This document shows positions 5,854 to 31,102 of a DNA stretch of 37,796 bases, in pieces. Where the stretch lies: the NCBI RefSeq assembly GCF_025056915.1, contig NZ_JANWVH010000019.1:1-37796 (forward strand), in the 5' to 3' direction. This stretch comes from Meiothermus sp. Lineage in GTDB: Bacteria; Deinococcota; Deinococci; Deinococcales; Thermaceae. Made by a program: the position numbers and the translations under genes. Positions within the stretch are counted from its first letter, which is position 1; each line of letters opens with the position of its first letter. The notes below the pieces were generated by a model. The model was given only the letters and a program-made list of their open reading frames with translations. It searched no databases and was not told the DNA's origin.

Positions 5854-8601
5854 GTGGAAACGGTTGAAGCCGTCATCTCAATTCTGCTTACAGCCCTGCT
5901 GATGGCAGCCCATAGTGGTCGGGAGCGCTGGGGGCTTACACCGTTCAACATGCTGGCCTCAGCCGTTGGCCTCATGGCCCTGCTGAGCTCTTTTTTTGTG
6001 GACGAGCTGGGGCTTTATTTTGGCCTGTTGTTCACCTTGCAGGTGGGGCTTTTGCTGCTTGTTGCACTCGGAGATGAAAAGCGCTGGCAAAGCACCCTGG
6101 CGGGCTTACTGCTGATTAGCGGGCTGGCCTTCGGTTTGCACAACCTATTACACTTGCTACACCTGCCGCTGGTGCAGGTGGCCAAGAGCACCGGCATCGT
6201 GAACCTTCGTATAGGGGCGCAGGCGCTGGCTTTGCTGCTTGGGGGAATGGCGGCCTGGTGGCTTTATCCCCGGTTGGCCGTGCGAAACCGCATTCAAGCG
6301 CTGGTGGCAGTGCTGGCGGTTTTGAGCCTGCTCAACACAGGACTCCTGTTTCTGCTGGCCCGCGAGGGGCTGCTCGAGCTGGTCGCCAGCTTCCTGTTGC
6401 AAGCGCTTCTGACCGGGCCTTTGCTGGGGCTGTACCTCGAGTGGTCGCGCCGCCAAATGCAAACCAAACCCATCGAAACCGCCTACACTGCGCTTCTGAA
6501 TACGGTCGAGGCCCTGGCGCGGGGAACCGAAGAGGAACTCTGGCCCCGCTTGCTGGAATCGGCGGTGCGGGTGGTGCCGGGGGCCCAGGCGGGCAGCATC
6601 CGGCTGCGCCAGGGTTCCGATTTTGTCTTTGTGGCCCAGCAGGGCTTCGGCGAAGGCATCCTTGGCGTGAGAAGCAGCGAGCTGGAAACCATGACCTGGC
6701 ATGGCAACCCGGCGGCCTGGCGGCAGGGTCAGCCCCGCATTGCCAACTACGCCGACATTCAGCGCACCCTGGCAGCTCACCAGGAAAACAATCAACTGAC
6801 CCAAAAACTCGACCAGAGCAGCGGAAATATGGTTGGTCGGATTCGCTCTACCCTCTGTATGCCCATTCTGCTGGGGGGCGAGGTGGTGGCCGAGATCAAC
6901 CTGGATGCCTTTCGCGATCGGGCCTTTGGTGAGCAGTCGGTGGAAGTGGCCCGCCAGTACGCGTTGCAGGTGACGGTGTTGCTGGCGGCACACCGCCAGC
7001 AGGCTGAGCTCGAGGCCCGCATCCACGAGTTTGAGGTAATCGAGGCCCTGAGTGCGGCCTTGCGGGGTCTGAAGGGCACCGGCGAGATTACCAAGCGGCT
7101 GGTGCGCGAGACCATTCGCCTGATGAACTCGGAGCACGCCGCGCTGCTGCTGATTGAGCCCGACGGCAAGCACATGCGCTGTTATGCGGCAGCCGGCTTT
7201 TTCCTGGAGATCAAGGATCAGCCGGTACCCCAGGGCCAGGGCTTTAGCTGGGCTGCCATCGAGAGCCGGGCGCCCATCTGGAGCCAGCAAGCCCATCTCG
7301 ACAAACGGGCGTTTGGGCGCTTCAAAACGCCCCGTCCGCCGTTCTCGGAAATCGTCATGCCTCTGTTTAGCTCCAAGGGGCATCCCCTTGGGGTGCTGAT
7401 TTCCGCTCGCAACGGCGCCGGTACCTTCTTCGAGCGGGATATGCGCTTGATGCAGGTGATCAGCAATATTGCCGCCAACACCCTCGAGCGGGTGCGGGCC
7501 AACGAGAACCTCGAGGCCGAGATCGCCGAAAAGACTGCCCTTTTGGAGCTTTCCCAGATGCTGGGCGGCAACGACGCCTCGCTGCTGCCGGTAGCCCTGG
7601 AGAAAATCCGTCAGATGGGCCACGCCGACTGTGTGGTGCTGGGGGTGCTCGAGGGCGAGGCTTTCCGGACCCGGGCGGTGGCGGGAGAGGTGCGTCCGGA
7701 GGTGGCCAGGTTGCTGGACAAACACCTGCCCCACAACCACCCGGTGTTCCAGGCGGTGGCCCCGGGTCAGCCCTTCCAGTGGGTCAATACGGAACTTCAC
7801 CCGGAGCTGCGGGCTTTCACGGCGGCAGGCATCCACGGGCTTTACATGATTGGGGTGGTTCACGAAACCGAGCTCCAGGCCGGGATGGCGCTGTACCGCT
7901 ACCAGCCGAGCCAGGGCTGGAGCGCCTCGGAAAACCGTTTGCTGGAAGGGGCTGCCCAGATTTTGGGAGCCCTGCTCTTGCGGCTCGAGCGCACCCGGCA
8001 GCTCGAGGCCGCCTACGACGGGGCCTTGCGGGCCATCGGTCTGGCCCTGGAGGCCCGCGACCGCGAGACCGCCGGCCACACCGACCGGGTGGCCGCCCTG
8101 GCCGAGCAGTTGGGACGGGCGCTGGGCCTGAGCGAGACCGAGCTGCGCGATTTGCGCTGGGGGGCCTACCTGCACGATGTGGGCAAGCTCACCATCCCCG
8201 ATGCCATCCTGCTCAAGCCGGGCAAGCTCACCCCCGAAGAGTTCAGCACCATGAAAACCCACGCCCCTCTGGGCGATAACCTGGTGCGTAACCTGCCCTT
8301 TGTGCCGCTCGCGGCCCGCCAGGTGGTGCGCCACCACCATGAGCGCTGGGATGGGCGGGGTTACCCAGACGGCCTGGCAGCCGAACACATTCCCCTCTCG
8401 GCCCGCATTTTCGCCATTTGCGACGTGTTCGATGCGCTGTGCTCCGAGCGGCCCTACAAAGCCGCCATGTCGCCGGAAATGGCCGCCCAGGAGCTATGGT
8501 GCAGCGTCCAGAGCGGCCATCTGGATCGGCACCTGGTCGAGGTATTTCTCAAAGCCCAGGGACTAGAAAAGGCCATTCTGCTGACCCAGGCTGCCGACTG
8601 A
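5854..8601 (+). CDS. Membrane GAF-domain HD-GYP phosphodiesterase
   Basis: This 915-residue signalling protein probably degrades cyclic di-GMP. The first 200 residues form about six transmembrane helices. Three GAF-like sensor regions follow (about 215-375, 390-550 and 560-710). The C-terminal HD-GYP domain (about 725-900) is complete: GHTDRVAALA near 740, the metal-binding HDVGK near 772, and HHHERWDGRGYPDGL near 826, whose GYP triplet marks the c-di-GMP-specific subgroup. It starts at a GTG with no Shine-Dalgarno sequence and with TAACCT eight bases upstream, which fits a leaderless transcript. It stands alone as a transcription unit. The ligand of the GAF domains cannot be told from sequence. 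Confidence 0.9.
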   Translation: METVEAVISILLTALLMAAHSGRERWGLTPFNMLASAVGLMALLSSFFVDELGLYFGLLFTLQVGLLLLVALGDEKRWQSTLAGLLLISGLAFGLHNLLHLLHLPLVQVAKSTGIVNLRIGAQALALLLGGMAAWWLYPRLAVRNRIQALVAVLAVLSLLNTGLLFLLAREGLLELVASFLLQALLTGPLLGLYLEWSRRQMQTKPIETAYTALLNTVEALARGTEEELWPRLLESAVRVVPGAQAGSIRLRQGSDFVFVAQQGFGEGILGVRSSELETMTWHGNPAAWRQGQPRIANYADIQRTLAAHQENNQLTQKLDQSSGNMVGRIRSTLCMPILLGGEVVAEINLDAFRDRAFGEQSVEVARQYALQVTVLLAAHRQQAELEARIHEFEVIEALSAALRGLKGTGEITKRLVRETIRLMNSEHAALLLIEPDGKHMRCYAAAGFFLEIKDQPVPQGQGFSWAAIESRAPIWSQQAHLDKRAFGRFKTPRPPFSEIVMPLFSSKGHPLGVLISARNGAGTFFERDMRLMQVISNIAANTLERVRANENLEAEIAEKTALLELSQMLGGNDASLLPVALEKIRQMGHADCVVLGVLEGEAFRTRAVAGEVRPEVARLLDKHLPHNHPVFQAVAPGQPFQWVNTELHPELRAFTAAGIHGLYMIGVVHETELQAGMALYRYQPSQGWSASENRLLEGAAQILGALLLRLERTRQLEAAYDGALRAIGLALEARDRETAGHTDRVAALAEQLGRALGLSETELRDLRWGAYLHDVGKLTIPDAILLKPGKLTPEEFSTMKTHAPLGDNLVRNLPFVPLAARQVVRHHHERWDGRGYPDGLAAEHIPLSARIFAICDVFDALCSERPYKAAMSPEMAAQELWCSVQSGHLDRHLVEVFLKAQGLEKAILLTQAAD

Positions 8602-20806: not shown

Positions 20807-22522
20807 ATGGAACTCATGACCCCCGCCCCCATCCTGGACAGCCCACCCGAGCACCTGCCCACCGGGAACCTCGAGGTTCACGTGGAGACGAGCCCCCAGG
20901 CCCCTGCCATTGCCCGCCTGGGGGTGGCCTCCCTTGCGCTAAATGGTTTGTTGGACTGGGTGGGGGAGCCCTTGTTGGAAGTCTCGGGCAGGGGTTGGAA
21001 GGTGTCGCGCACGGCGGACTGGATTCCGGTCTGGGAAAACGAGCAGCTCAAGGTCACGCTGCTGGCCCCCTACGGCGAGCGCGGGCTGGCGCTGCGCCTG
21101 GAGCCCCGTACATCCGGGCCGATTCAAATCGCCGGGAACCTGGAGTACCTGGGGCTGCGGCGCTTCAAGGAAGAGCGGCTCGAGGCCACCTTTCGCACCA
21201 CCCACGACCCCTGGACGGGGAGTTTTGTGCTGGAAGCCCGCAGCGAGCGCACCCTGCTGGCCTTGGGCTGGCAGGCCGACCCCCCTCCCACCCGCGCAGA
21301 CTGGGGCCAGCAGTACGTGCTCGAGTGGGACACCGGCCCGGTCACGCTGTACCTGGGCCTGGCCCCCGAAAGCGACGGGGCCCGCACCACCGCCCTGCAT
21401 TTGCGCCGGGTAGGCTGGGAGGCGCTGCTGCGCAAGACCCTGCACAAGCTGGCCCTGCTCTCCACCCACTACAGCGGCCCCCTCTTTGAGCTCTACCGGC
21501 GGCACCTGATTTTTAGCTACTTCTACGCCCAGGCCGACACCCTGGAAGGCGAGCCGGTGCTGCTCACCTCGCGCAGCCCGCACTACTACGTCTCGGGGGC
21601 CTACTGGGCCCGGGATGGGCTTTTGTGGTTTTTTCCGGCCCTGCTCAAGGCCGACCGCAAGCGGGCCAAAGAGGTGCTCAAGGCGGTCTTCCACCGCTTT
21701 GCCCGCTGGCCGGGGGAGCACGCCCAGTACCTGAGCGGGCCGCCGTTGTATCCGGGCTTCGAGCTCGACCAGGCCGCCGCCTACCCGCTGGCCCTGGCCC
21801 GCTACCTGGAAGCTACCGGCCCCAACCCCGAACTCGTGGCCGAGCTGCGCGAGCCCCTTCGGTGGGTGTTCGAGCGGGTGGCCCAGGAAAAACACCCTTC
21901 GCTGCCGCTTTATCGCACCTTTCTTTCCCCCACCGACGACCCCGTAAAAGAGCCCTACCTGACCTACGACAACGCCCTGTGGGCGGTGGCCCTGGAACGG
22001 CTTGCGCCCTACTGGCCCGAGCCGGAAACCCTCAAACACGAGGCCCGGGCCCTGCGCGAGACCCTCTACCGCCAGGCCGAGCGCAACGGGCGTTTTGTCT
22101 TCAGTTTTGAGCCGGGGGGACATTATACCTTCTCCGATGAGCCGGCGGGCAGCCTGCTCTTGCTGCCGCATCTGGGCTTTTGCAACCGCCAGGACCCCAT
22201 CTGGCAGGCCACCGCGCTGTGGATTCTGGGCCCAGACAACCCCCACCACTACAAAGGGCGCTTCCCCGGCGAGGGCTCGGCGCACTTTCCTTTTCCCTCC
22301 GGCTTTGGCCTGGCCAACCGAATTTTGTCGGGGCTGATGCGACCTGCGGGGGATGCCTTGATGGTGCTCGAGCAGGCCCCCCTAGACCAGGGCTATGCCT
22401 GTGAATCGTTCGACCCCCAGACGGGGAAGAGCCGCACCGGGGTGGGGTTCGCAGCGCTGGCCGGTTTTATCGCGTATGCCCTATCGGCAGGCAAGGAGGG
22501 CCGAACAGCTCCCCTAACCTGA
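20807..22522 (+). CDS. Six-hairpin glycosidase, GH125-like
   Basis: This 571-residue protein has an N-terminal beta-rich domain (about 15-215) and an (alpha/alpha)6 type domain (about 230-565). The second domain contains YYVSGAYWARDGLLWFFPAL, YPGFELDQAAAYPLALARYL, YLTYDNALWAVAL, LLLLPHLGFCNRQDPIWQAT and, near the end, GYACESFDPQTGKSRTGVGF. The order of the PHLGFC, DNPHHY and ACESFDP segments resembles GH125 exo-alpha-mannosidases; related debranching-type glycosidases are the alternative. There is no signal peptide, so it acts in the cytoplasm. I chose ATG 20807 because sequence before it is not protein-like. The 3' end overlaps the convergent PepSY gene by nine bases. Confidence 0.65.
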   Translation: MELMTPAPILDSPPEHLPTGNLEVHVETSPQAPAIARLGVASLALNGLLDWVGEPLLEVSGRGWKVSRTADWIPVWENEQLKVTLLAPYGERGLALRLEPRTSGPIQIAGNLEYLGLRRFKEERLEATFRTTHDPWTGSFVLEARSERTLLALGWQADPPPTRADWGQQYVLEWDTGPVTLYLGLAPESDGARTTALHLRRVGWEALLRKTLHKLALLSTHYSGPLFELYRRHLIFSYFYAQADTLEGEPVLLTSRSPHYYVSGAYWARDGLLWFFPALLKADRKRAKEVLKAVFHRFARWPGEHAQYLSGPPLYPGFELDQAAAYPLALARYLEATGPNPELVAELREPLRWVFERVAQEKHPSLPLYRTFLSPTDDPVKEPYLTYDNALWAVALERLAPYWPEPETLKHEARALRETLYRQAERNGRFVFSFEPGGHYTFSDEPAGSLLLLPHLGFCNRQDPIWQATALWILGPDNPHHYKGRFPGEGSAHFPFPSGFGLANRILSGLMRPAGDALMVLEQAPLDQGYACESFDPQTGKSRTGVGFAALAGFIAYALSAGKEGRTAPLT

Positions 22523-23146
22523 GGCCGCCCGGCCCATCAGAAGCAACAGCAGCACTGCGCCTCCCAGCGCGGTGGTTATGGCCGCTGCACGGGTCTTGCG
22601 GAAAAACAGCGAAAGCCCAAAGCCGGTCAGGGCCACCAGTAGCAAAAAGCCCCCCGAGAGGTCTATCAGCCAGGCCCAGGCCCGGCCCGCGTCGCGCCCC
22701 CGGTGCAGGTCGTTGAGCACGGCCACCGGGCCCTGGGCCACCACCTTCAAGGTGTAGCTGCCGTCGGCTCGGTTAATAAAGGCATCGGCGGCGTAGGCGG
22801 GGGCCCGGAAGCTGATGGAGGCTTCCTGGTCGTCGGCGCGGGTATCGCTTACCCGGCCCTTCAGGCTGTGGGCAGCCCGGAGGGCCTCGGCGGTTTGCAG
22901 CCAGTCTACCTGCCCGTCCCGCTGCCAGTTTTGCGGCAGGGTGCCGCTGTAGGTGTGGGTGGTCTGGGCGGTGCCCAACACCCACTCGGGGTGGTTCAGG
23001 GTGATGCCGGTGGCGGCGAAGAAAAGCACCACCAGCAGGCTAATCATGGAAGCGTAGAGGTGCAGCCAGCGCACCACCCCATAGGCCCTGGCTCGCAGGG
23101 GCTTTTGGAGCTTGTCGGGCCGGGCGGCTTCAACCCTGCTTGTCAT
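22514..23146 (-). CDS. PepSY-associated membrane protein
   Basis: This 210-residue inner-membrane protein has an N-terminal helix (about 24-50: VVRWLHLYASMISLLVVLFF), an extracytoplasmic PepSY-like domain (about 52-150) and two C-terminal helices (about 157-208), the first reading LIDLSGGFLLLVALTGFGLSL. This is the small PepSY_TM plan found in redox and iron-reduction gene clusters, where it is thought to carry electrons or haem. Histidines in WLHLYAS and LNDLHRG could bind haem, an inference. Its ATG overlaps the end of the DUF2271 gene by 17 bases, which indicates translational coupling. Confidence 0.85.
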   Translation of the reverse strand: MTSRVEAARPDKLQKPLRARAYGVVRWLHLYASMISLLVVLFFAATGITLNHPEWVLGTAQTTHTYSGTLPQNWQRDGQVDWLQTAEALRAAHSLKGRVSDTRADDQEASISFRAPAYAADAFINRADGSYTLKVVAQGPVAVLNDLHRGRDAGRAWAWLIDLSGGFLLLVALTGFGLSLFFRKTRAAAITTALGGAVLLLLLMGRAASG

Positions 23147-23672
23147 AGGTGAGCGTCACCTCCTTCAGTTCACCGGCCATGTTGAAGCTGCGCTTGAAGG
23201 GCGTTTGGGCCAGGGTGACTTTTTCGCGGAAAAGCTCGTAGGGGCCGTGCTCCCGCACCATCTCTACGCACACGAAGTAGTCGCCCTGGCTCACCGGGTT
23301 GCCCTTGTCGTCCTTGCCGTCGAAGCTCAGAGCATAGCGCCCCGGCAGGCGGGTTGGGCCCGAGACGGTGTTCTCGAGGCTCCCGCTGCGATACCAACGC
23401 CGCAAGTCGGGCAACCAGCGGGTTCCCTTGCTGGACTGCTCAAACCACAAGGCCAGGGTGCGCACCGGCAAACCCTGGGCGTTCTCGAGCCAGACCGCCA
23501 CGTAAGGAGCGCGGTAGCGTCCTCCGCTGGCGGCTGCTATCTCGAAGGTGATATCCAGCTTCATGCCGGCAGCCCAGCGGGCCTGGGCCAGACTCCTTCC
23601 AGCCCAAAGGGTCAGGAACAGGCCGGTGGCACGGTAGATAAAGCTTCGGCGGCTGATAAACCTGCGCTGCAT
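23130..23672 (-). CDS. Tat-exported DUF2271 protein
   Basis: This 180-residue exported protein begins with a twin-arginine-like signal (SRRSFIYRATGLFLTLWAG, about 8-26), cleaved near SLAQA. The mature part contains APYVAVWLENAQG, TRLPGRYALSFDGKDDKG and GDYFVCVEMVREHGPYEL, the pattern of DUF2271 proteins. These form small beta-rich periplasmic domains and are commonly encoded with PepSY and ApbE proteins. ATG 23672 has AGGAGA six bases upstream. It lies 29 bases after the ApbE gene and overlaps the PepSY gene. I infer a periplasmic electron-transfer partner, possibly an acceptor of a flavin attached by ApbE, but no ApbE target motif is obvious. Confidence 0.8.
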   Translation of the reverse strand: MQRRFISRRSFIYRATGLFLTLWAGRSLAQARWAAGMKLDITFEIAAASGGRYRAPYVAVWLENAQGLPVRTLALWFEQSSKGTRWLPDLRRWYRSGSLENTVSGPTRLPGRYALSFDGKDDKGNPVSQGDYFVCVEMVREHGPYELFREKVTLAQTPFKRSFNMAGELKEVTLTYDKQG

Positions 23673-23701
23673 GGGTATCTCCTTGATATTCATCTTGATA
23701 T

Positions 23702-24610
23702 TCATCGAATCCGTTGTTGCTCGAACCTGGGGTTGCTGTGGGTCTGGCCGCTTGCCTCCACCAGCAAGCAGCCCACCCCGAAGACCTCGGCCAGGGCCAG
23801 GCTGAGCATGGGCTCCAGCACGCAAAAGGTCGTGGAGAGCACGTCGGCCACTGCGGCGCTGGGGGCAACGACGGTGGCCTGGGCAATCTGCGCTACGGGC
23901 CGGGCGCTGCGGGGGTCGAAGAGGTGCTGGCCGCGCCAGGTGTGGCCGCTGGTGGCTACGCCCTGGTTGCAGATCTCGAGCCAGGCCAGTGGAGGGGCGT
24001 TGTCGGCTGGATGGAAGGGATGCGTGACCGCAACCCGCACCCCCTGCGGGCCGATGTGCCGAAGATCCCCTCCCAGGTTGACCAGCACCGCCTGCCGACC
24101 TGCCCCCAGGGCGGCCTGAGCGGCCCGGTCGGCAATCTGCCCCTTGGCCAGGGCGTTGAAGGTGAGGGGCAGAGGGGTCAGCTTGTGGGCTACGCGGCCC
24201 TCGAGCCGCCATAAGGGGCCCTGGAGGGCCGTCTGGAGGGCGGAGCGCTCGGCCTCGCTGGGCCGGGGGTTCTGCCGGTACAGGGCTTGCACGGCGGCTA
24301 CCGCCGGGTTGAAGGCCCCGTAGGTGTGGGCCATCCAGCTTTCGGCCTCGCGCAGCAGGTTTCGCAGCTCGAGCGAGACCACTGCCCTGCCCTGGGCCTG
24401 CCAGCGGGAAAGCTCGGAGGTGGGCAGAAAGCTGCTAAAGATGCCCTCGAGCCGCTCAATCTCGGCCAGCGCCGCAGCCTCGCCCGTGCGTGCACTGCGC
24501 GGGTTGTCGGCCAGCAGTTGCAGCTCGAGGGCCGTCCCCAACACGCCTTCATGGCGAACCCGATGGTGCTGGAGGCGCGGTTTGAGCCAGGTGTGGAAAG
24601 CCAGGGGCAT
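23702..24610 (-). CDS. apbE: FAD:protein FMN transferase (ApbE family)
   Basis: ApbE attaches FMN from FAD to a threonine or serine of exported redox proteins. In the 302 residues I see an N-terminal GTALELQLLAD strand, TYGAFNPAVA (the family's TxGaFdptv), LTFNALAKGQIADRAAQAAL, VNLGGDLRHIGPQG, and the C-terminal ATVVAPSAAVADVLSTTF, which replaces the more usual ADalaTal motif. The start ATG 24610 has GGAG close in front; the frame is open far upstream, but only by chance across the dioxygenase gene. No signal peptide or lipobox is visible, so a cytoplasmic or uncleaved form is possible. The neighbours, PepSY and DUF2271 proteins, are typical partners. Confidence 0.85.
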   Translation of the reverse strand: MPLAFHTWLKPRLQHHRVRHEGVLGTALELQLLADNPRSARTGEAAALAEIERLEGIFSSFLPTSELSRWQAQGRAVVSLELRNLLREAESWMAHTYGAFNPAVAAVQALYRQNPRPSEAERSALQTALQGPLWRLEGRVAHKLTPLPLTFNALAKGQIADRAAQAALGAGRQAVLVNLGGDLRHIGPQGVRVAVTHPFHPADNAPPLAWLEICNQGVATSGHTWRGQHLFDPRSARPVAQIAQATVVAPSAAVADVLSTTFCVLEPMLSLALAEVFGVGCLLVEASGQTHSNPRFEQQRIR

Positions 24611-24693
24611 AAAATCTCCGAACCGTAGGGGCAGTATCCCCAAACAGCATGAGGGTTTGACCAACGCTTGAAGAAGATTGGTTGAAGAAGGGT

Positions 24694-25407
24694 CTACAGG
24701 TTCAGCCCAATCTCGAAGGTAGCCGCATAGCCTGCGCCGCTTTGAACGGGGTTGAGCAGCAACTGGCTCCCGCCGTTGCGGTAGATGCCGTCGTTGGCGT
24801 TGCGGGTGCGGGTGCCCGCCTTGGCGTAGGGGGGGTTGGCCAGTATGCGGTCGCTCAGGGCGTCGTCGAAGAAGAGCTGGGAGGTGAAGTCGCGGTTCTG
24901 GTAGCGGATTTTGAAGTGGATGTGCACGGTGCGGCCCGGATACCAGCCGGGGTAGATGGTGGTGAACTGGGCGAGGCCCTGGGCATCGGTAATCTGGTGG
25001 CCGCGCAGCCACTTCTGCCCCCGGGTGTCGGCAAAGCGGTCCTGCACGCCGGAGTAAAGGCCCTGGGCGTCGCACTGCCAGATGTCCACCATTGCGCCCG
25101 GTAAGGGATTACAGCCGCCGGTCGAGACCCTCGAGACCGCAAAGCGCAACACCAGGGGAACCCCGGCCTTGAGCACGCCCGTAGTGGGGTCGGAGCGGAT
25201 GTCGGAGCGGTTGAGCTGGGTATCCACAAAGTAAGGGCCCTCGGTCAGAGCCGGGCGCACGATGCAAGCCGGCAGCGGTGCATTCTGTGCGCTGGCTTTC
25301 GGCCCGCTCAGAAGCCCGCCCACCCCGGCCAGGCTGCCCAGCCCCAGCACCGAAAGCACCTCGCGGCGGCTCAGGATGCGCCCGATGGGTTTATCGTCGT
25401 TGTCCAT
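24694..25407 (-). CDS. Exported intradiol ring-cleavage dioxygenase
   Basis: This non-haem Fe(III) dioxygenase of the protocatechuate/catechol family has 237 residues. A twin-arginine signal (SRREVLSVLGLGSLAGVGG, about 13-31) and an AQA cleavage site predict folding in the cytoplasm and export. The fold is shown by ALTEGPYFVD, GAMVDIWQCDAQGLYSG, LRGHQITDAQG and YPGWYPGRTVHIHFKI; the two tyrosines and two histidines expected as iron ligands are present in these segments. The enzyme is of the short, secreted type rather than the two-subunit protocatechuate dioxygenase. ATG 25407 has GGGAGG upstream. Other catabolic genes are absent, so it probably acts on external aromatics. Confidence 0.88.
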   Translation of the reverse strand: MDNDDKPIGRILSRREVLSVLGLGSLAGVGGLLSGPKASAQNAPLPACIVRPALTEGPYFVDTQLNRSDIRSDPTTGVLKAGVPLVLRFAVSRVSTGGCNPLPGAMVDIWQCDAQGLYSGVQDRFADTRGQKWLRGHQITDAQGLAQFTTIYPGWYPGRTVHIHFKIRYQNRDFTSQLFFDDALSDRILANPPYAKAGTRTRNANDGIYRNGGSQLLLNPVQSGAGYAATFEIGLNL

Positions 25408-25516
25408 ACAACCTCCCTTTGGATTTATTCTGGGTGCCTCCGGTGGCAAGCGGGTTAGAGCTTGCGGGGTCTTTTTTCATCGGCCCGGGCAACCCAGAAG
25501 CTGGCTGGAGGGTGGC

Positions 25517-25774
25517 TCACCCCCCCAGGTTCTTCTTCAGGGTCTCGTACTCGCTCTGGCTAATCTCGCCCTTCGCGTAGCGCTCACGGGCAATTTCCAG
25601 GGCCCGGTCGGGGCCGGCTTTGCCGTTGGCCGGGCTTCGCAGCAGCCGCGCAATCAGCACCAGCACCAGCGCCAGCAAACCCAGCAGCAACAGTACCCAG
25701 AGCACATCGTCCACCACCCCCAAGCCGTAGTAGCCGAAGCCATCCCATCGTCCTCGGTGATCGATCTGCCACAT
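25517..25774 (-). CDS. SHOCT-domain membrane protein
   Basis: This 85-residue protein has one transmembrane helix (about 21-43: DDVLWVLLLLGLLALVLVL) and a C-terminal SHOCT motif (about 58-84: ALEIARERYAKGEISQSEYETL in part). SHOCT is a short helical hairpin found at protein ends and used for oligomerisation. The aromatic, glycine-rich N-terminus (WDGFGYYGLG) precedes the helix. The ribosome site AGGAGAGG lies within a small palindrome CTCCTCTAGGAG, which could mask it. It lies 73 bases after the secreted protein gene on the same strand. Function is unknown; it may be a membrane partner in the redox operon. Confidence 0.8.
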   Translation of the reverse strand: MWQIDHRGRWDGFGYYGLGVVDDVLWVLLLLGLLALVLVLIARLLRSPANGKAGPDRALEIARERYAKGEISQSEYETLKKNLGG

Positions 25775-25847
25775 ACAAACCTCTCCTAGAGGAGTGGCTT
25801 GCGGTACATGGGTTGCCCACTGACCGCAAGCCACCGGCTACTTGCTC

Positions 25848-26306
25848 CTAGCGTCCGCGGCCCCGGGGGCCATCCCACCCATCCCGCTCGCCCCTGCCCA
25901 GGCGCAGCTGCACCGGCTGGGCGACGAGGGCCTTGGCAACCGCCTGGCTGCTGGCTTTGAGGCTGGTGGCCTGCTGGGCGGTCAGACGCCCGGCCTGCAC
26001 GGCCTGGTCAATGGCCTGGTTGCGGGCCGTGACCAGGGCAGCCTCGAGGGCGGCGGGGGTCTTGCCGAGGTCGGTGGCGACCTGGGCCAGGGTCTTGGTG
26101 CCACCTGAAAGCAGCGCAAGCTCGGCGGGGGTCACGCCCAAAAACTGGGCTGCGCTGTAGTACAGATTGCCCACCCCCAGGCCCCGGAACATCATCCGCT
26201 GCATGGGCTGCACCGGCGCCTGCTGCGGGGCCGGGGTCTGCTGGGCCAAAGCGCCCGCCAGGGCCAGGCTCGAGACAACCAGCAAGGTTTTGACTGTTTT
26301 GTTCAT
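25848..26306 (-). CDS. Small secreted protein with LGVTPAEL repeat-like motif
   Basis: This exported protein of 152 residues has a clear signal peptide (about 1-21, MNKTVKTLLVVSSLALAGALA). The mature part has a Gln/Pro/Met-rich head, then QFLGVTPAELALLSGGTKTLAQVATDLGKT and a further helical stretch, and ends in a charged Arg/Gly/Asp tail. The LGxTxxELxxL...GKTLAQVA wording is common in small secreted proteins of Gram-positive and Thermus-type bacteria (DUF2680-like, uncertain). It is the first gene of the minus-strand run and has GGAGG before its ATG. Its upstream region contains the same 11-bp-spaced direct repeats as the divergent regulator promoter. Confidence 0.75.
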   Translation of the reverse strand: MNKTVKTLLVVSSLALAGALAQQTPAPQQAPVQPMQRMMFRGLGVGNLYYSAAQFLGVTPAELALLSGGTKTLAQVATDLGKTPAALEAALVTARNQAIDQAVQAGRLTAQQATSLKASSQAVAKALVAQPVQLRLGRGERDGWDGPRGRGR

Positions 26307-26367: not shown

Positions 26368-26385
26368 GGTTACGGGGCAGTTACG
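26368..26385 (-). promoter_or_regulatory. Direct repeats (CGTAAC, 11-bp period) upstream of the secreted protein operon
   Basis: On the minus strand CGTAACTGCCC is followed at once by CGTAACCGCGC, one helical turn apart. It resembles CATAACCCC twice at 26971-26990. The spacing is typical of OmpR-family binding sites, so this is a likely target of the regulator at 27010. Confidence 0.55.
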
Positions 26386-26970: not shown

Positions 26971-26990
26971 CATAACCCCCCCATAACCCC
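26971..26990 (+). promoter_or_regulatory. Direct repeats (CATAACCCC, 11-bp period) at the regulator promoter
   Basis: CATAACCCC occurs at 26971-26979 and 26982-26990, immediately before a -10-like TACAAT (26991-26996). The phasing and position suit autoregulation by an OmpR-type dimer. Confidence 0.6.
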
Positions 26991-27009: not shown

Positions 27010-27672
27010 ATGCGGCTTTTGCTGGTGGAGGACGAACCCAACATCGCCCGCCCGGTGATCAGGGCGTTGGAGGCCCAGGGGCACCAGGTGCGTCACGCGC
27101 CGGATTTGCAAACGGCCCGCGAGCTGCTGGCCGAGGCCGAGCCGGACCTGATGATTCTGGACGTGCGCCTGCCGGAGTCGGAGGACGGGGGGTTCATCCT
27201 GGCCCGGGAGGCCCGCCAGGCGGGGTACAAAGGCCCCATCCTGTTCATGACCGCCCGCGATGCCCTGGCAGACCGGGTGATGGGCCTCGACGAGGGCGGC
27301 GACGACTACGTGGTCAAACCCTTCGACCTGCCGGAGTTGCTGGCCCGGGTGCGGGCCTTGCTGCGCCGGGTGAGCGAGGTGAAGCAGAGCCGGGTGCAGT
27401 ACGGCCCCCTCGAGCTCGACCTCACCAACCGCAGCGTTCGCTGGGCAGGGCGGCCAGTGGAGCTGAGCGGGCGCGAGTATGCCCTCTTGGAACGCCTGGC
27501 CCTCTTCCCGGGGCGCATCTACAGCCCGGAGGAACTCTTAGATCTGATCTGGGGCGAGGAAGCCTCAGACCCCGGCGTGGTCAAGGTGTGCGTGCACCAC
27601 CTGCGTAGCAAGCTGGACAGCCGCGTGGTGCGCACGGTGCCGGGGGGCTACAGGCTGGGGTTGGAACCATGA
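27010..27672 (+). CDS. OmpR-family response regulator
   Basis: This DNA-binding response regulator of 220 residues has a receiver domain (about 1-118) with the acidic pair in VEDE, phospho-acceptor D51 in ILDVRLP, T in FMTARD and K in VVKPFDL. The winged-helix output domain (about 125-218) contains LSGREYALLERLALFPGRIYS and VHHLRSKLDSRVVRTVPGGYRLG. I chose ATG 27010, since MRLLLVEDE is the usual start and TACAAT lies 13 bases upstream. The gene overlaps the kinase start by four bases. Direct repeats right before the promoter suggest autoregulation, and similar repeats upstream of the divergent operon suggest a second target. Confidence 0.93.
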   Translation: MRLLLVEDEPNIARPVIRALEAQGHQVRHAPDLQTARELLAEAEPDLMILDVRLPESEDGGFILAREARQAGYKGPILFMTARDALADRVMGLDEGGDDYVVKPFDLPELLARVRALLRRVSEVKQSRVQYGPLELDLTNRSVRWAGRPVELSGREYALLERLALFPGRIYSPEELLDLIWGEEASDPGVVKVCVHHLRSKLDSRVVRTVPGGYRLGLEP

Positions 27673-29015
27673 GCCTGCGGGTGCGGCTGGCCCTTTTCAT
27701 CGCCCTGGCCATTGCTCTGGCGCTGCTGGTGCAGGGCTTCTTGGGCTATGCCAGCTTCGAGCGCTTGCAGATGGGCAGCCTCGAGCGCGAGCTGGATGCC
27801 TACTTAGGGCGCATTGTGGGCCAGCTGGAGGGCCGCAGGGGCCCCTCGCGTTGGTTGCGGAGGGAGCGCGATGGCGATGGCCCCCGGTTCACAAGCCCCA
27901 ATCCCCTCGAGCGCCTTCGCCTCGAAGACCGCGATGTGCCCATGAACCCCACCCAGGCCGGTACCATCGCCCATGCCCGCCTGGTGCACAGCGGCACCGT
28001 GCTGCGCGAGTGGGGCCGTTTTCCCGACGAGCTGCCCTTTTCCAGCAGCCCAGTGCCCCGCCTGGAACAAAACTGGCTCTTCCGCAGCGTGCGCCTGGGC
28101 CCGGAGATGTACCTGCAAGGCGCGGTGGAGGCCAGCCAGGTTCGGGCCAGCCTGGCCGGTTACCGGCAAACCGTGCTGCTGACCGCGCTGGTGGTGGCTT
28201 TGCTGGGCGCGCTGGCGGCCTGGCTGCTCAGCGGGCCGGCGCTGAGGCCCCTGCGCCATCTTCTGGAGGCCACCCGACGGGTGGCTGACTCGGGCGACCT
28301 GAGCCTGCGGGTACCCCCCGAGGGCAGCGGGGAGCTGCGCCACCTGAGCCAGACCTTCAACCAGATGCTGGAAAGGCTCTCGGCCTTCCGCCAGCGCGAG
28401 ACCGAGTTCACCCGCAACGCGGCCCACGAGCTGCGCACCCCCCTGACCGCCTTGCAGCTCCAGCTCGACGCTCATCGGCAGGGGCTTTCGACCCCGGAGG
28501 AGACCCTGAGCGTGGTTCAGGAAGAGGTGGAGCGCATGACCCACCTGAGCGAGTCGCTCCTGACCCTGGCCCGGGAAGGGCGCGGCCAGCGGGTCGGGCT
28601 CGACTTAGCCCAGCTGGCCCAGGCAGCGGCCCGGAACGCCGGGGTTCCCTACCAGGGGCCCCAAGGTTTGCAGATCATGGGCGACCCCTTCCTGCTGGAA
28701 CAAGCCCTGGAAAACCTGCTCAGCAACGCCCAGAAGTACGCTTCTGGGGCCAGGGTGGAACTCGAGCCCGCCACCGACCCCACCTTTGTGGTGCTGCGCG
28801 TCCGCGACACCGGGCCGGGCATGCCGCCCGAGGTGCTCAAGCGGGCCGCCGAGCCCTTCTACCGCGCCCCTGGGGTGCGCGTGCCCGGCAACGGCCTGGG
28901 CCTCTCGGTGGTGGCCCAGGTGGCCCGAGCCCACGGAGGTCGGCTGGTGCTGGCCCCCAACCAACCCCAGGGCTTATGTGCCGAGCTGTGGCTCAGGGTA
29001 GCCGAGCCGGGTTGA
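27669..29015 (+). CDS. Sensor histidine kinase
   Basis: This is the cognate membrane kinase of the preceding regulator, 448 residues. It has helix 1 (about 7-28), an extracytoplasmic loop of about 140 residues, helix 2 (about 172-192), a HAMP segment (RPLRHLLEATRRVADSG onwards), and the dimerisation box NAAHELRTPL with phospho-accepting H253. The ATPase domain has N in ENLLSNAQKYA, G1 in RDTGPGMP and G2 in GNGLGLSVVAQVA. It overlaps the regulator by four bases (ATGA) and the opposing kinase gene by 23 bases at their 3' ends. The signal is unknown; the loop has no named sensor fold. Confidence 0.92.
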   Translation: MSLRVRLALFIALAIALALLVQGFLGYASFERLQMGSLERELDAYLGRIVGQLEGRRGPSRWLRRERDGDGPRFTSPNPLERLRLEDRDVPMNPTQAGTIAHARLVHSGTVLREWGRFPDELPFSSSPVPRLEQNWLFRSVRLGPEMYLQGAVEASQVRASLAGYRQTVLLTALVVALLGALAAWLLSGPALRPLRHLLEATRRVADSGDLSLRVPPEGSGELRHLSQTFNQMLERLSAFRQRETEFTRNAAHELRTPLTALQLQLDAHRQGLSTPEETLSVVQEEVERMTHLSESLLTLAREGRGQRVGLDLAQLAQAAARNAGVPYQGPQGLQIMGDPFLLEQALENLLSNAQKYASGARVELEPATDPTFVVLRVRDTGPGMPPEVLKRAAEPFYRAPGVRVPGNGLGLSVVAQVARAHGGRLVLAPNQPQGLCAELWLRVAEPG

Positions 29016-30270
29016 GGGGAAGCTGCAACTCGAACAGGGCGCCCCCCTCGGGGCCGTTTTGGGCCGTGACCCGGCCTGCGTGCAGCTCGACCAGGGTTTT
29101 GACGATGGAAAGCCCCAAACCGCTCCCACCGGTGGCCCTCGAGCGCGAGGCTTCGGCGCGGTAGAAGCGGTCGAAAACTTTGGGCAGGGCCTCCTCGGGA
29201 ATGCCGGGGCCGGTGTCTTGAACCTTCAGGTAGGCTAAAGAGGCCGAACGGCCAGCTTCGAGCACAATCTTGCCCTGGGCCGGGGTGTGGGCCAGGGCAT
29301 TGTTCAGCAGGTTGCCAATCACCTGGGCCAGGCGGTCGGGGTCGCCCTTGACCGGTATGGGCTCTTCAAGTTTGAGCTCGAGGCCGATCTGGCGGGCTTC
29401 TAAGGCGGCCTGGAAGCCCGAGGCTACGCGCCGCGTCAGCTCGGCCAGCTCGAGTTCGCGCATCACCAGGTTCAAGCGCCCCGCGTCGGCCAGGGAGAGG
29501 GTGCGCAGATCCTCGACCAGGCGGGCCAGCAGCGCGGTCTGGTGGTGCAGGCGGTCTATCTCGGCCTGCTCCAGGGGCAATACCCCGTCCTGGATGGCCT
29601 CGAGCCGCCCCTGCATGACCGTGAGCGGTGTCCGCAGCTCGTGGGCGATGTCGGCAATCAGGGCCTTGCGCTCGGCCTCGAGGCGCTCCAGCGAGGCCGC
29701 CATGTGGTTGAAGTTCTGGGCCAGCCGAGCCACCTCGTCGTGCCCCTTTGGGCTCGGGATGCGTACCGAGAGCTGCCCCTGGGCCAGCCGACTGGCCGCT
29801 TCGGAGATGGCCTCGATGGGCCGGGCCACCCGGCGGGCGAACACCAGCGCCGCCAGAATCCCCAGCACCGTGGCAACCAGACCCGCAATGAGCAGATTCT
29901 GCTGCAAACGGGCCTCGAGGCCGGGCCGCCGGGGACGCGGCGGTGCCTGGAGCCGCAGGGGGGGTGCGTTGGGGTCGTCGAGGGGGGCGACCAGGAAAAC
30001 GGGGTTGGGGTTCTCGGGGTCGGTGGAGGGCCGCATCTGCACCCGTATTTCACGGCCTGCAACCAGAAGCTCGCGCAGCTCGGGGGTCAGGTTCAGGCTG
30101 GGCGGGCGGCCCTCGTTGCGGCGCAGGTACTCCCGAAGCTCGGGGGGCAGGTCGCGGAAGGTACGCTCGCGTTGGTAGTTGTTCAGGGCGATGGTGATCA
30201 GGCTGGTCACCACCACCACCAGCACCATGAGCAGGCTCAGGCGCACTTCGATGCGGTCGAAAAAACGCAT
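28993..30270 (-). CDS. Sensor histidine kinase (BaeS-like)
   Basis: This is the kinase of the second two-component system, 425 residues. Helix 1 (about 10-30) is followed by a short extracytoplasmic region rich in Pro and Arg (REYLRRNEGRPPSLN and PPRPRRPGLE) and helix 2 (about 126-146). A HAMP domain starts RRVARPIEAISEAASRL. H210 lies in IADIAHELRTPLTVMQ, and the ATPase motifs are NLLNNALAHT, DTGPGIPEEALPKVFDRFYR and GGSGLGLSIVKTLVE. The gene lies 8 bases or so after its regulator's stop region on the same strand and ends inside the 3' end of the other kinase gene. The extracytoplasmic part is small, as in envelope-stress kinases. The signal is unknown. Confidence 0.92.
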   Translation of the reverse strand: MRFFDRIEVRLSLLMVLVVVVTSLITIALNNYQRERTFRDLPPELREYLRRNEGRPPSLNLTPELRELLVAGREIRVQMRPSTDPENPNPVFLVAPLDDPNAPPLRLQAPPRPRRPGLEARLQQNLLIAGLVATVLGILAALVFARRVARPIEAISEAASRLAQGQLSVRIPSPKGHDEVARLAQNFNHMAASLERLEAERKALIADIAHELRTPLTVMQGRLEAIQDGVLPLEQAEIDRLHHQTALLARLVEDLRTLSLADAGRLNLVMRELELAELTRRVASGFQAALEARQIGLELKLEEPIPVKGDPDRLAQVIGNLLNNALAHTPAQGKIVLEAGRSASLAYLKVQDTGPGIPEEALPKVFDRFYRAEASRSRATGGSGLGLSIVKTLVELHAGRVTAQNGPEGGALFELQLPLNPARLP

Positions 30271-30301
30271 ATCGCTAAAGGCTAGGGGCCGGCAGGGGGT
30301 C

Positions 30302-30979
30302 TCAGGCCTCGAGCCATAGCCGATACCCTACCCCGCGCACCGTTTCCAGCAGGCCGCCCCCGCCCAACGCCTCCAGCTTCTTCCGCAGGTTTTTGAGGTG
30401 CACGTCCACCACCCGCTCCAGGGCATCGGACTCGGGAAGGGCCGCCTCCAGCAGCTCGGCGCGGGTGAAAGCCTTGCCGGGGGTGCGGGCCAGGGTCTCC
30501 AGCAGCCGAAACTCGGTGGGGGTGAGCTCGAGGCGCACCCCCTCCAGCCTGGCCACCACCTTCTCGCTGTCGATTTCCAAAGGCCCCACCCGCAGGATGG
30601 GCCGGCTCGGTTCAGCCGGTACGGCCCGGCGCAGCACCGCCTTGACCCGGGCCACCACCTCGCGGGGGCTGAAGGGCTTGGTCACGTAGTCGTCGGCGCC
30701 CAGCTCCAGGCCCAGCAGCTTGTCCAGGTCCTCGGTGCGGGCCGTGAGCAGAATGACCGGGGTATGGCCCTCGCTGCGAATGCGGCGCAGCACCTCGAGG
30801 CCGTCCATCTCCGGCAGCATGATGTCCAGAAGCACCAGATCGGGCCGGGCCGCCCTGACCAGGTTCAAAGCCTGCCTGCCGTCCGAGGCCCGTTCGGTGC
30901 GAAAGCCCTCACGGCGCAGATAGCCCTCCAGAACCTCGGCAATCTCCGGCTCGTCTTCGACCACCAGTACCAGTCCCAC
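30302..30979 (-). CDS. OmpR-family response regulator
   Basis: This is the regulator of the second two-component system, 225 residues. The receiver domain has VVEDEPEIAEVLEGYL, D52 in LLDIMLPEMDG, T in LLTARTED and K in VTKPFSPRE. The winged-helix domain has LTPTEFRLLETLARTPGKAF and VDVHLKNLRKKLEALGG. I place the start at GTG 30979 because a TACACT box lies seven bases before it and the protein then begins VGLVLVVEDE; ATG 31009 would add ten residues and is the alternative. The kinase gene follows downstream. Two loosely similar boxes (31026-31034 and 31048-31056) lie in the region shared with the divergent MFS gene. Confidence 0.9.
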   Translation of the reverse strand: MGLVLVVEDEPEIAEVLEGYLRREGFRTERASDGRQALNLVRAARPDLVLLDIMLPEMDGLEVLRRIRSEGHTPVILLTARTEDLDKLLGLELGADDYVTKPFSPREVVARVKAVLRRAVPAEPSRPILRVGPLEIDSEKVVARLEGVRLELTPTEFRLLETLARTPGKAFTRAELLEAALPESDALERVVDVHLKNLRKKLEALGGGGLLETVRGVGYRLWLEA

Positions 30980-30986
30980 CGATTCC

Positions 30987-30992
30987 AGTGTA
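30987..30992 (-). promoter_or_regulatory. -10 box (TACACT) that decides the start of the second regulator
   Basis: Read on the minus strand, TACACT ends seven bases before GTG 30979. It lies inside the coding region if the upstream ATG 31009 is used, which argues for the GTG. Confidence 0.5.
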
Positions 30993-31102
30993 TCGGGAGA
31001 CGGCAACATGAAAAAAGATTGCTACGGGGTTGTGAAGGGCCGGCGTGGGATTTGTGTAGATTTGGGGAAGTCCACCCTTCCCAAAACTGACCCACCGGTC
31101 AA

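Follow-up and report, generated by a model that had tools for sequence, protein, structure and literature searches.

The 37,796-nucleotide contig NZ_JANWVH010000019.1 from a Meiothermus sp. genome (assembly GCF_025056915.1; 3.0 Mb, 94% complete), analysed over its whole length and referred to here as the window, is one of the contigs of that genome. Its open reading frame (ORF) list contains six ORFs, all on the minus strand between 26306 and 22514, encoding a small secreted protein, a SHOCT protein, an exported intradiol ring-cleavage dioxygenase, the FMN transferase ApbE, a DUF2271 protein and a PepSY membrane protein, and a two-component system is transcribed divergently from them. An original prediction, made from the sequence letters of the window, described six co-directional genes with gaps of no more than 110 bases; the successive gaps are indeed 73, 109, 83 and 29 bases, followed by a 17-base overlap between the DUF2271 and PepSY genes. 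Pfam assigned five of the six proteins above cut-off, leaving the small secreted protein without any family above that level. The features, in window coordinates, are as follows.

25848..26306, minus strand: small secreted protein P0006, predicted to be all-helical, with Meiothermus orthologues and only a sub-threshold DUF2680 match (E 0.011).
25517..25774, minus strand: SHOCT protein P0005 (PF09851, E 1.3e-8), with one transmembrane segment judged by eye.
24694..25407, minus strand: intradiol ring-cleavage dioxygenase P0004 (PF00775 Dioxygenase_C, E 1.3e-14), with a Tat-type leader containing an RR motif.
24916..25056, minus strand: codon span of the four predicted Fe(III) ligands Tyr118, Tyr156, His162 and His164, from an alignment (6/6 rows).
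24611..24693, minus strand: conserved noncoding stretch before apbE with GGGGATACT, a candidate promoter of its own.
23702..24610, minus strand: ApbE, FAD:protein FMN transferase, P0003 (PF02424, E 1e-44), with no evident signal peptide.
23130..23672, minus strand: DUF2271 protein P0002 (PF10029, E 1.7e-34), with a Tat-type leader, the predicted FMN carrier.
23352..23363, minus strand: SGPT motif (residues 104-107), with predicted FMN attachment at Thr107, going by its invariance and the chemistry in PMC8238504.
22514..23146, minus strand: PepSY membrane protein P0001 (PepSY_TM_like_2 PF16357, E 9.1e-37; His29, His52, His148), a predicted haem-b electron conduit.
26368..26384, plus strand: candidate regulator box GGTTACGGGGCAGTTAC, upstream of the small secreted gene.
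26972..26988, minus strand: candidate regulator box GGTTATGGGGGGGTTAT, before the regulator gene and beside a TACAAT hexamer resembling a -10 element.
27010..27672, plus strand: divergent OmpR-type response regulator (RR), with a PF00486 winged helix at 27448-27657.
27669..29015, plus strand: sensor histidine kinase, with HAMP, HisKA and HATPase_c matches.

A division into two modules suits the six genes better than a single operon. Module A comprises the small secreted protein, the SHOCT protein and the Tat-type intradiol dioxygenase; module B comprises ApbE, DUF2271 and PepSY, a published kind of system; and the divergent two-component system is the common link between them. Gene order was compared across a genus set of 18 Meiothermus genomes, the window genome included. 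The dioxygenase was present in all 18 (E <= 3.6e-84) and adjacent to ApbE in 11, so the arrangement is not due to chance; contig ends cut the gene run in G008, G020 and G021. The ApbE cassette was located elsewhere in one genome (G006), and no ApbE was detected in six others (G005, G011, G012, G013, G014 and G019), yet in all seven genomes without the adjacent cassette the dioxygenase stood beside the divergent regulator. Regulator and module A shared one contig, side by side, in 16/18 genomes; in G020 the two halves both end at contig edges, and only G015, with regulator and kinase on a different contig from module A, is an exception to this adjacency. The full arrangement was also found in a sister genus (G002). 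The locus is real and conserved, and the original prediction of an extracytoplasmic redox locus that combines ApbE, DUF2271 and PepSY with an exported dioxygenase beside a two-component system is supported, the linkage holding in 11 of the 18 genomes.

The stretch upstream of Meiothermus apbE is conserved and noncoding, contains GGGGATACT, and carries CTTCA direct repeats in several relatives. Two genomes, in which 245 and 412 bases separate the dioxygenase gene from apbE, retain a related stretch. This pattern suggests a separate promoter before apbE, the alternative being co-transcription from upstream. These two gaps (L065 8890-9134, 245 bases; L066 8476-8887, 412 bases) were possibly enlarged by mobile-element remnants. 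A single operon that senses and oxidises aromatics as a catabolic unit would agree with the common strand, the short gaps and the adjacency of dioxygenase and ApbE in 11 genomes, but we consider it improbable: promoter-like sequence precedes apbE, 7/18 genomes retain the dioxygenase without an adjacent cassette, and the other window ORFs scanned (30 in all) include no further aromatic-degradation family.

In loci from two genera, which we infer to be close to Thermus and label Thermus-like, the regulator faces apbE directly and divergently across 71-118 bases (15/15 loci). The Thermus-like dioxygenase, 36-42% identical, lies elsewhere from the cassette in all 11 mapped loci (L082-L092), and five wider maps (L095-L099) gave no match to the small secreted protein, the SHOCT protein or the dioxygenase. 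Seven cassette loci from other Deinococcota families (L162-L168) also had no dioxygenase match.

Further dioxygenase loci were retrieved by a scan of genome contigs, from which the best 80 loci of a longer match list were retained; grouped by record title, they comprise 7 Meiothermus, 28 cyanobacterial, 23 Chloroflexota, 13 Nitrospira-type and 9 other loci. Using tblastn, relatives of ApbE, DUF2271 and PepSY were found in 0 of the 73 non-Meiothermus loci, some of which lie on short contigs. An OmpR regulator occurred within 3 kb in 16 of the 28 cyanobacterial loci, upstream and divergent in all 16, and in 4/23 Chloroflexota, 0/13 Nitrospira-type and 1/9 other loci. A regulator of this type would seldom fall there by chance, given that ten of these genomes, 3.4-9.8 Mb in size, encode 9-38 OmpR regulators each; many of the cyanobacterial loci come from related filamentous cyanobacteria and therefore do not represent independent events. 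Eleven of the 16 regulator-bearing cyanobacterial loci encode an LGVT-repeat or LTxxQ secreted protein on the same strand within two genes, such a protein occurs within five genes in 13/28, and PF07813 was matched in all three LTxxQ proteins scanned. Among open-access papers we recognised none that connects a two-component system with an exported intradiol dioxygenase. The idea of one functional operon is not supported, on three counts: the dioxygenase stays by the regulator in 7/7 genus genomes without the adjacent cassette, it is unlinked in 11/11 Thermus-like loci, and no cassette gene was found near it in the 73 non-Meiothermus loci among the best 80. The conserved linkage of dioxygenase and apbE that had been proposed as a check holds in 11/18 Meiothermus genomes and breaks down in the 11 Thermus-like dioxygenase loci.

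What connects the two modules is the regulator. A phylogenetic tree of 28 OmpR regulators included those of the Meiothermus loci, three Thermus-like ApbE-linked regulators, six other regulators of the window genome and six other Thermus-like ones. The Meiothermus regulators and the three ApbE-linked Thermus-like regulators formed one eight-row clade (support 100/98), separate from both groups of six, and by this placement the locus regulators of Meiothermus and the Thermus-like genera are judged orthologous. The divergent spacer contains, near each gene, a direct repeat with an 11-bp period, in the form GGTTAY-N5-RGTTAY in Meiothermus and a GGTTAG-N5-SGTTA-like form in most Thermus-like loci. 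Both boxes were present in 14 of 17 spacers (16 from the genus plus G002), with 31 matches against 0.01 expected from mononucleotide shuffles, and the Thermus-like spacers carried the regulator-side box in 15/15 and both orientations in 13/15 (overlapping in L060), with 28 matches against 0.005 expected; these expectations overstate the case and serve as a guide only, as the patterns were derived from part of the same sequences and the genomes are related. In the window genome the pattern matched four times, twice at the locus and twice as GGTTATCCACAGGTTAT, with none for the reversed control. The GGTTATCCACAGGTTAT sites resemble DnaA boxes, and DnaA-box-like GGTTATCCACA[A/G]GTTAT sites (G000:C120:17048-17064 and G000:C137:18904-18920 in the window genome) occur in 12/18 genus genomes.

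Two rearranged genomes are telling. In G006, 16 kb of sequence contain one match, located directly upstream of the relocated apbE; in G015, regulator and secreted gene lie on different contigs and each has kept its box. The boxes stay with relocated parts. In G056, from another family, apbE is preceded by a weaker match. A coincidental neighbourhood, in which regulator, dioxygenase and cassette are functionally untied, could appeal to the occurrence of each part without the others somewhere; we rate it very unlikely given the shared boxes, the regulator orthology, the boxes kept with moved parts in G006 and G015, and the divergent regulator in 16/28 cyanobacterial loci, set against 9-38 OmpR regulators per 3.4-9.8 Mb genome in the ten genomes counted.

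A stronger contender, though still a doubtful one, is that module B is a plain ferric-reductase or iron-assimilation system of the PepSY kind, with the dioxygenase module a functionally unrelated neighbour that shares the regulator promoter region. Module B stands alone beside the regulator in all 15 Thermus-like loci, no module B gene lies near the dioxygenase in 73/73 non-Meiothermus loci of the best 80, and the seven cassette loci of other Deinococcota families lack a dioxygenase match. Published work ties PepSY clusters to iron through Fur control, iron-transporter neighbours and fitness under EDTA (PMC8238504, PMC11870441). This explanation accounts less well for the box upstream of module A and for the regulator beside module A on one contig in 16/18 genus genomes, where G020 has contig edges and only G015 places the regulator on another contig.

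Module B belongs to a known kind of system; its acceptor motif is a variant one, and it has a candidate regulator of its own. A DUF2271 protein was found to be flavinylated by its cognate ApbE, and replacement of the predicted Thr abolished flavinylation (Meheust et al. 2021, PMC8238504). The corresponding Thr107 is invariant in 10/10 aligned DUF2271 rows from Deinococcota and Proteobacteria. Because of this demonstrated chemistry and the invariant residue, FMN very probably attaches to the DUF2271 protein itself, on Thr107 of SGPT, and the original statement that no obvious FMN-attachment target is encoded is not supported. SGPT was found in 16 of 17 DUF2271 relatives, the sole exception being AGPT in L098. 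The motif was also considered as a unique acceptor variant, which was rejected when TSPT, SAPT and SSAT were found elsewhere. Only one ApbE was detected in the window genome, where no FMN_bind protein was detected as its client, and a viral-contig scan with DUF2271 gave no match. In G013 (100% complete), a DUF2271 protein with SGPT (L169, G013:C24:37000-49500, at 5981-6520 of the locus) and a PepSY protein lie beside another two-component system with no ApbE detected in the genome; either ApbE was missed or FMN comes from another route.

The PepSY protein matches PF03929 (E 1.7e-8) besides PF16357 and is encoded beside ApbE and DUF2271. PepSY-like flavinylated systems have been defined by a PF03929 or PF16357 protein in a flavinylation-associated cluster (PMC8238504), and the window cluster fits that definition by its PepSY families. 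His29, His52 and His148 are invariant in 9/9 rows, consistent with the haem-binding PepSY protein described in PMC11334425. A fold match to FoxB was sought in the structural model, which is poor (pLDDT 71, pTM 0.47), and FoxB was absent from the results; Foldseek returned no match at E <= 0.001, and the top VIA-align rows (Z up to 8.3) were ABC transporter chains and other unrelated proteins. A simple scan, supplemented by visual inspection, found an RR-x-hydrophobic leader in 18/18 DUF2271 rows, 31/31 dioxygenase rows and 1/18 ApbE rows; that ApbE lacks a signal peptide was likewise judged by eye. FMN may thus be loaded in the cytoplasm before Tat export.

In module A, the dioxygenase scores 54.5 bits against PF00775, with a cut-off of 27.3. 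Y118, Y156, H162 and H164 are invariant in 6/6 alignment rows and correspond to the Tyr2-His2 iron ligands of the family. The enzyme is predicted to cut catechol-type molecules outside the inner membrane. Its nearest solved relatives are 5vg2 and 6bdj, secreted spider-mite enzymes, and secreted mite dioxygenases have been proposed to detoxify catecholic plant compounds (PMC9167512). The small secreted protein P0006 has relatives in two Chloroflexota dioxygenase loci (a profile match of 8e-7 in L233 and a 34% alignment in L251), and its profile matches cyanobacterial LGVT-repeat proteins weakly (best E 0.0026). A Spy-like identity was considered for P0006 and was not supported by a PF07813 LTXXQ match, PF07813 being the Spy/CpxP family, or by a convincing fold match: the model has a pLDDT of 68, the best Foldseek E is 0.64, and the best VIA-align Z of 4.6 (rmsd 4.7, 82 aligned) is to ribosome recycling factor.

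These features bear on a further explanation, envelope polyphenol stress, which overlaps the catechol/iron response minus the iron: regulator, small secreted helper and dioxygenase would protect envelope proteins from catechols or tannins, and module B would reduce quinones. The divergent upstream regulator in 16/28 cyanobacterial loci of the best 80 speaks for it, as do the LGVT-repeat or LTxxQ secreted proteins in 11 of those 16 (PF07813 in 3/3 LTxxQ proteins), the role of tannic acid as a known spy inducer (PMC12503329) and the detoxification proposed for the mite enzymes (PMC9167512). P0006, though, lacks an LTXXQ match and a convincing fold match, many of the cyanobacterial loci are related, and no regulator lies within 3 kb in 13/13 Nitrospira-type and 19/23 Chloroflexota loci of the best 80. 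We hold this explanation to be possible without being probable.

Characterized systems offer partial parallels. The PepSY-like flavinylated systems of PMC8238504 resemble the locus in gathering ApbE, DUF2271 and a PepSY protein of the same Pfam in one cluster and in keeping the acceptor Thr. The locus differs from them in its SGPT motif, Tat-type DUF2271, ApbE without an evident signal peptide and lack of an adjacent DUF4198, and its cassette faces a two-component system in the Thermus-like genera and adjoins an exported intradiol dioxygenase in Meiothermus. The Caulobacter PepSY-like operon CCNA_03155-03159, for which periplasmic ferric reduction has been proposed, similarly combines PepSY, DUF2271 and a flavin-related gene; it is a Fur target with DUF4198 (PMC11870441), whereas two-component control is the putative mode here. 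In Streptococcus pneumoniae, the genes of the SifR regulon, which answer to a quinone sensor, encode a catechol dioxygenase together with a flavin ferric reductase and a haem protein that has a ferric-reductase domain (PMC9218516). Going by these function descriptions, the Meiothermus locus would work like it but outside the cytoplasm, with three corresponding predicted functions under one regulator. There, a 2,3- (extradiol) dioxygenase acts on catechols imported to the cytoplasm under an Rrf2-family quinone sensor (PMC9218516), whereas the regulator at the locus is OmpR-type and not an Rrf2-family repressor. The original suggestion of iron-catecholate handling is one possibility, and it has a cytoplasmic precedent in the SifR regulon (PMC9218516). 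Among secreted intradiol dioxygenases, the spider-mite DOGs 6bdj and 5vg2 and the entries 4ilt/4ilv are the best PDB sequence matches to P0004, all of an exported intradiol family; P0004 differs in its Tat-type leader and its place beside a two-component system. We take 4ilt/4ilv to be an extracellular Streptomyces enzyme.

Gene content, conservation, box sharing, regulator orthology, module separability and intact catalytic and acceptor residues are all matters of observation. Among the explanations for them we favour an extracytoplasmic catechol/iron response composed of two separable modules on one orthologous two-component system, to which we assign a probability of roughly 45%; its signal, substrate and electron acceptor are those we infer, and the plain-iron and polyphenol-stress explanations are close rivals. 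We favour it because of the PepSY-iron links, the two plasmid clusters that adjoin TonB siderophore receptors, the mite dioxygenases and the SifR precedent. In such a response, the kinase would sense an envelope signal, perhaps catechols, quinones or their iron complexes, and the regulator, binding what conservation suggests are GGTTA-N6-RGTTA direct repeats, would drive the small secreted protein, the SHOCT protein and the exported dioxygenase. The dioxygenase would open catechol-type rings outside the membrane, before quinones form or iron is locked up. ApbE would attach FMN to Thr107 of DUF2271 in the cytoplasm, and the FMN-loaded protein, exported folded by Tat, would take electrons via the PepSY haem protein and reduce ferric iron, ferric catecholates or quinones, the direction and acceptor given here being the putative ones.

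Several observations weigh against this catechol/iron response. Separate inheritance of the modules means that they need not share a task, and besides the locus dioxygenase the scan of 30 window ORFs yielded neither an iron-transport nor an aromatic-catabolism family. Across the 18 genus genomes the box pattern matched 65 times and its reversed control 19 times, pattern and control tying (4 and 4) in G006 and G012. Six other Deinococcota cassettes (L162-L166, L168) gave no box, nor did L081, L169 or L170. In Meiothermus the boxes lie upstream of module A, apbE having a different upstream sequence, and control of module B by the regulator there therefore remains a proposal. SGPT deviates from the published [S/T]GA[S/T] at the third position, with the acceptor Thr retained. 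By simple hydropathy the ApbE and DUF2271 leaders overlap, and two proteobacterial ApbE proteins without an evident signal peptide pair with Sec-type DUF2271, so cytoplasmic loading does not require Tat; a rule that cytoplasmic ApbE goes with Tat-type DUF2271, which fits the Deinococcota loci, was dropped on these two counterexamples.

Other features surround the locus and its relatives. A converging neighbour at 20939-22519 (plus strand) matches GH125 (PF06824, E 3.3e-10) and adjoins the locus in 13/18 genus genomes, the window counted. A second two-component pair, RR2/HK2, lies behind the first at 28993-31009 (minus strand). RR2 groups with two dioxygenase-linked Chloroflexota regulators (support 98/96) in the 28-row tree, and 9 of the 11 mapped loci with the Thermus-like dioxygenase (L082-L092) show, several kb upstream of that gene, a match to an HK2-like kinase (31-46% identity). 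Control of Meiothermus apbE by RR2 was considered; the half-sites are alike, and the resemblance is too weak to claim. The relocated cassette of G006 is found downstream of an RR2/HK2-like pair, separated from it by a gene for a DUF4405 protein (L080 6346-6957, G006:C11; PF14358, E 3.8e-12), and DUF4405 has been described as a flavinylation-associated cytochrome (PMC11334425). The plasmid clusters L176 and L178 (Sphingomonas, Methylobacterium), ordered PepSY-DUF2271-DUF4198-ApbE, adjoin TonB siderophore receptors and an annotated Fe2+-dependent dioxygenase, of a different type going by its annotation.

At this conserved locus, the association that is less expected is that of the exported dioxygenase with a two-component system, and the findings suggest that such systems and exported intradiol dioxygenases are repeatedly paired. 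A more tentative proposal is that, under a dedicated two-component sensor, catechols are cleaved outside by the dioxygenase while a Tat-exported flavoprotein, loaded beforehand, and a haem wire reduce the freed or chelated iron; the regulator and exported dioxygenase would then represent an envelope response, so far undescribed, that recurs in Cyanobacteria and some Chloroflexota, with the flavin cassette as an exchangeable add-on. The question of the flavin acceptor is answered, very probably, by the DUF2271 protein, and module B gains a candidate dedicated regulator with a short DNA target that is common to two genera and rare in the window genome. Both the acceptor site and the regulon are directly testable in a tractable thermophile, and could reveal the signal for flavin-based reduction at the envelope.

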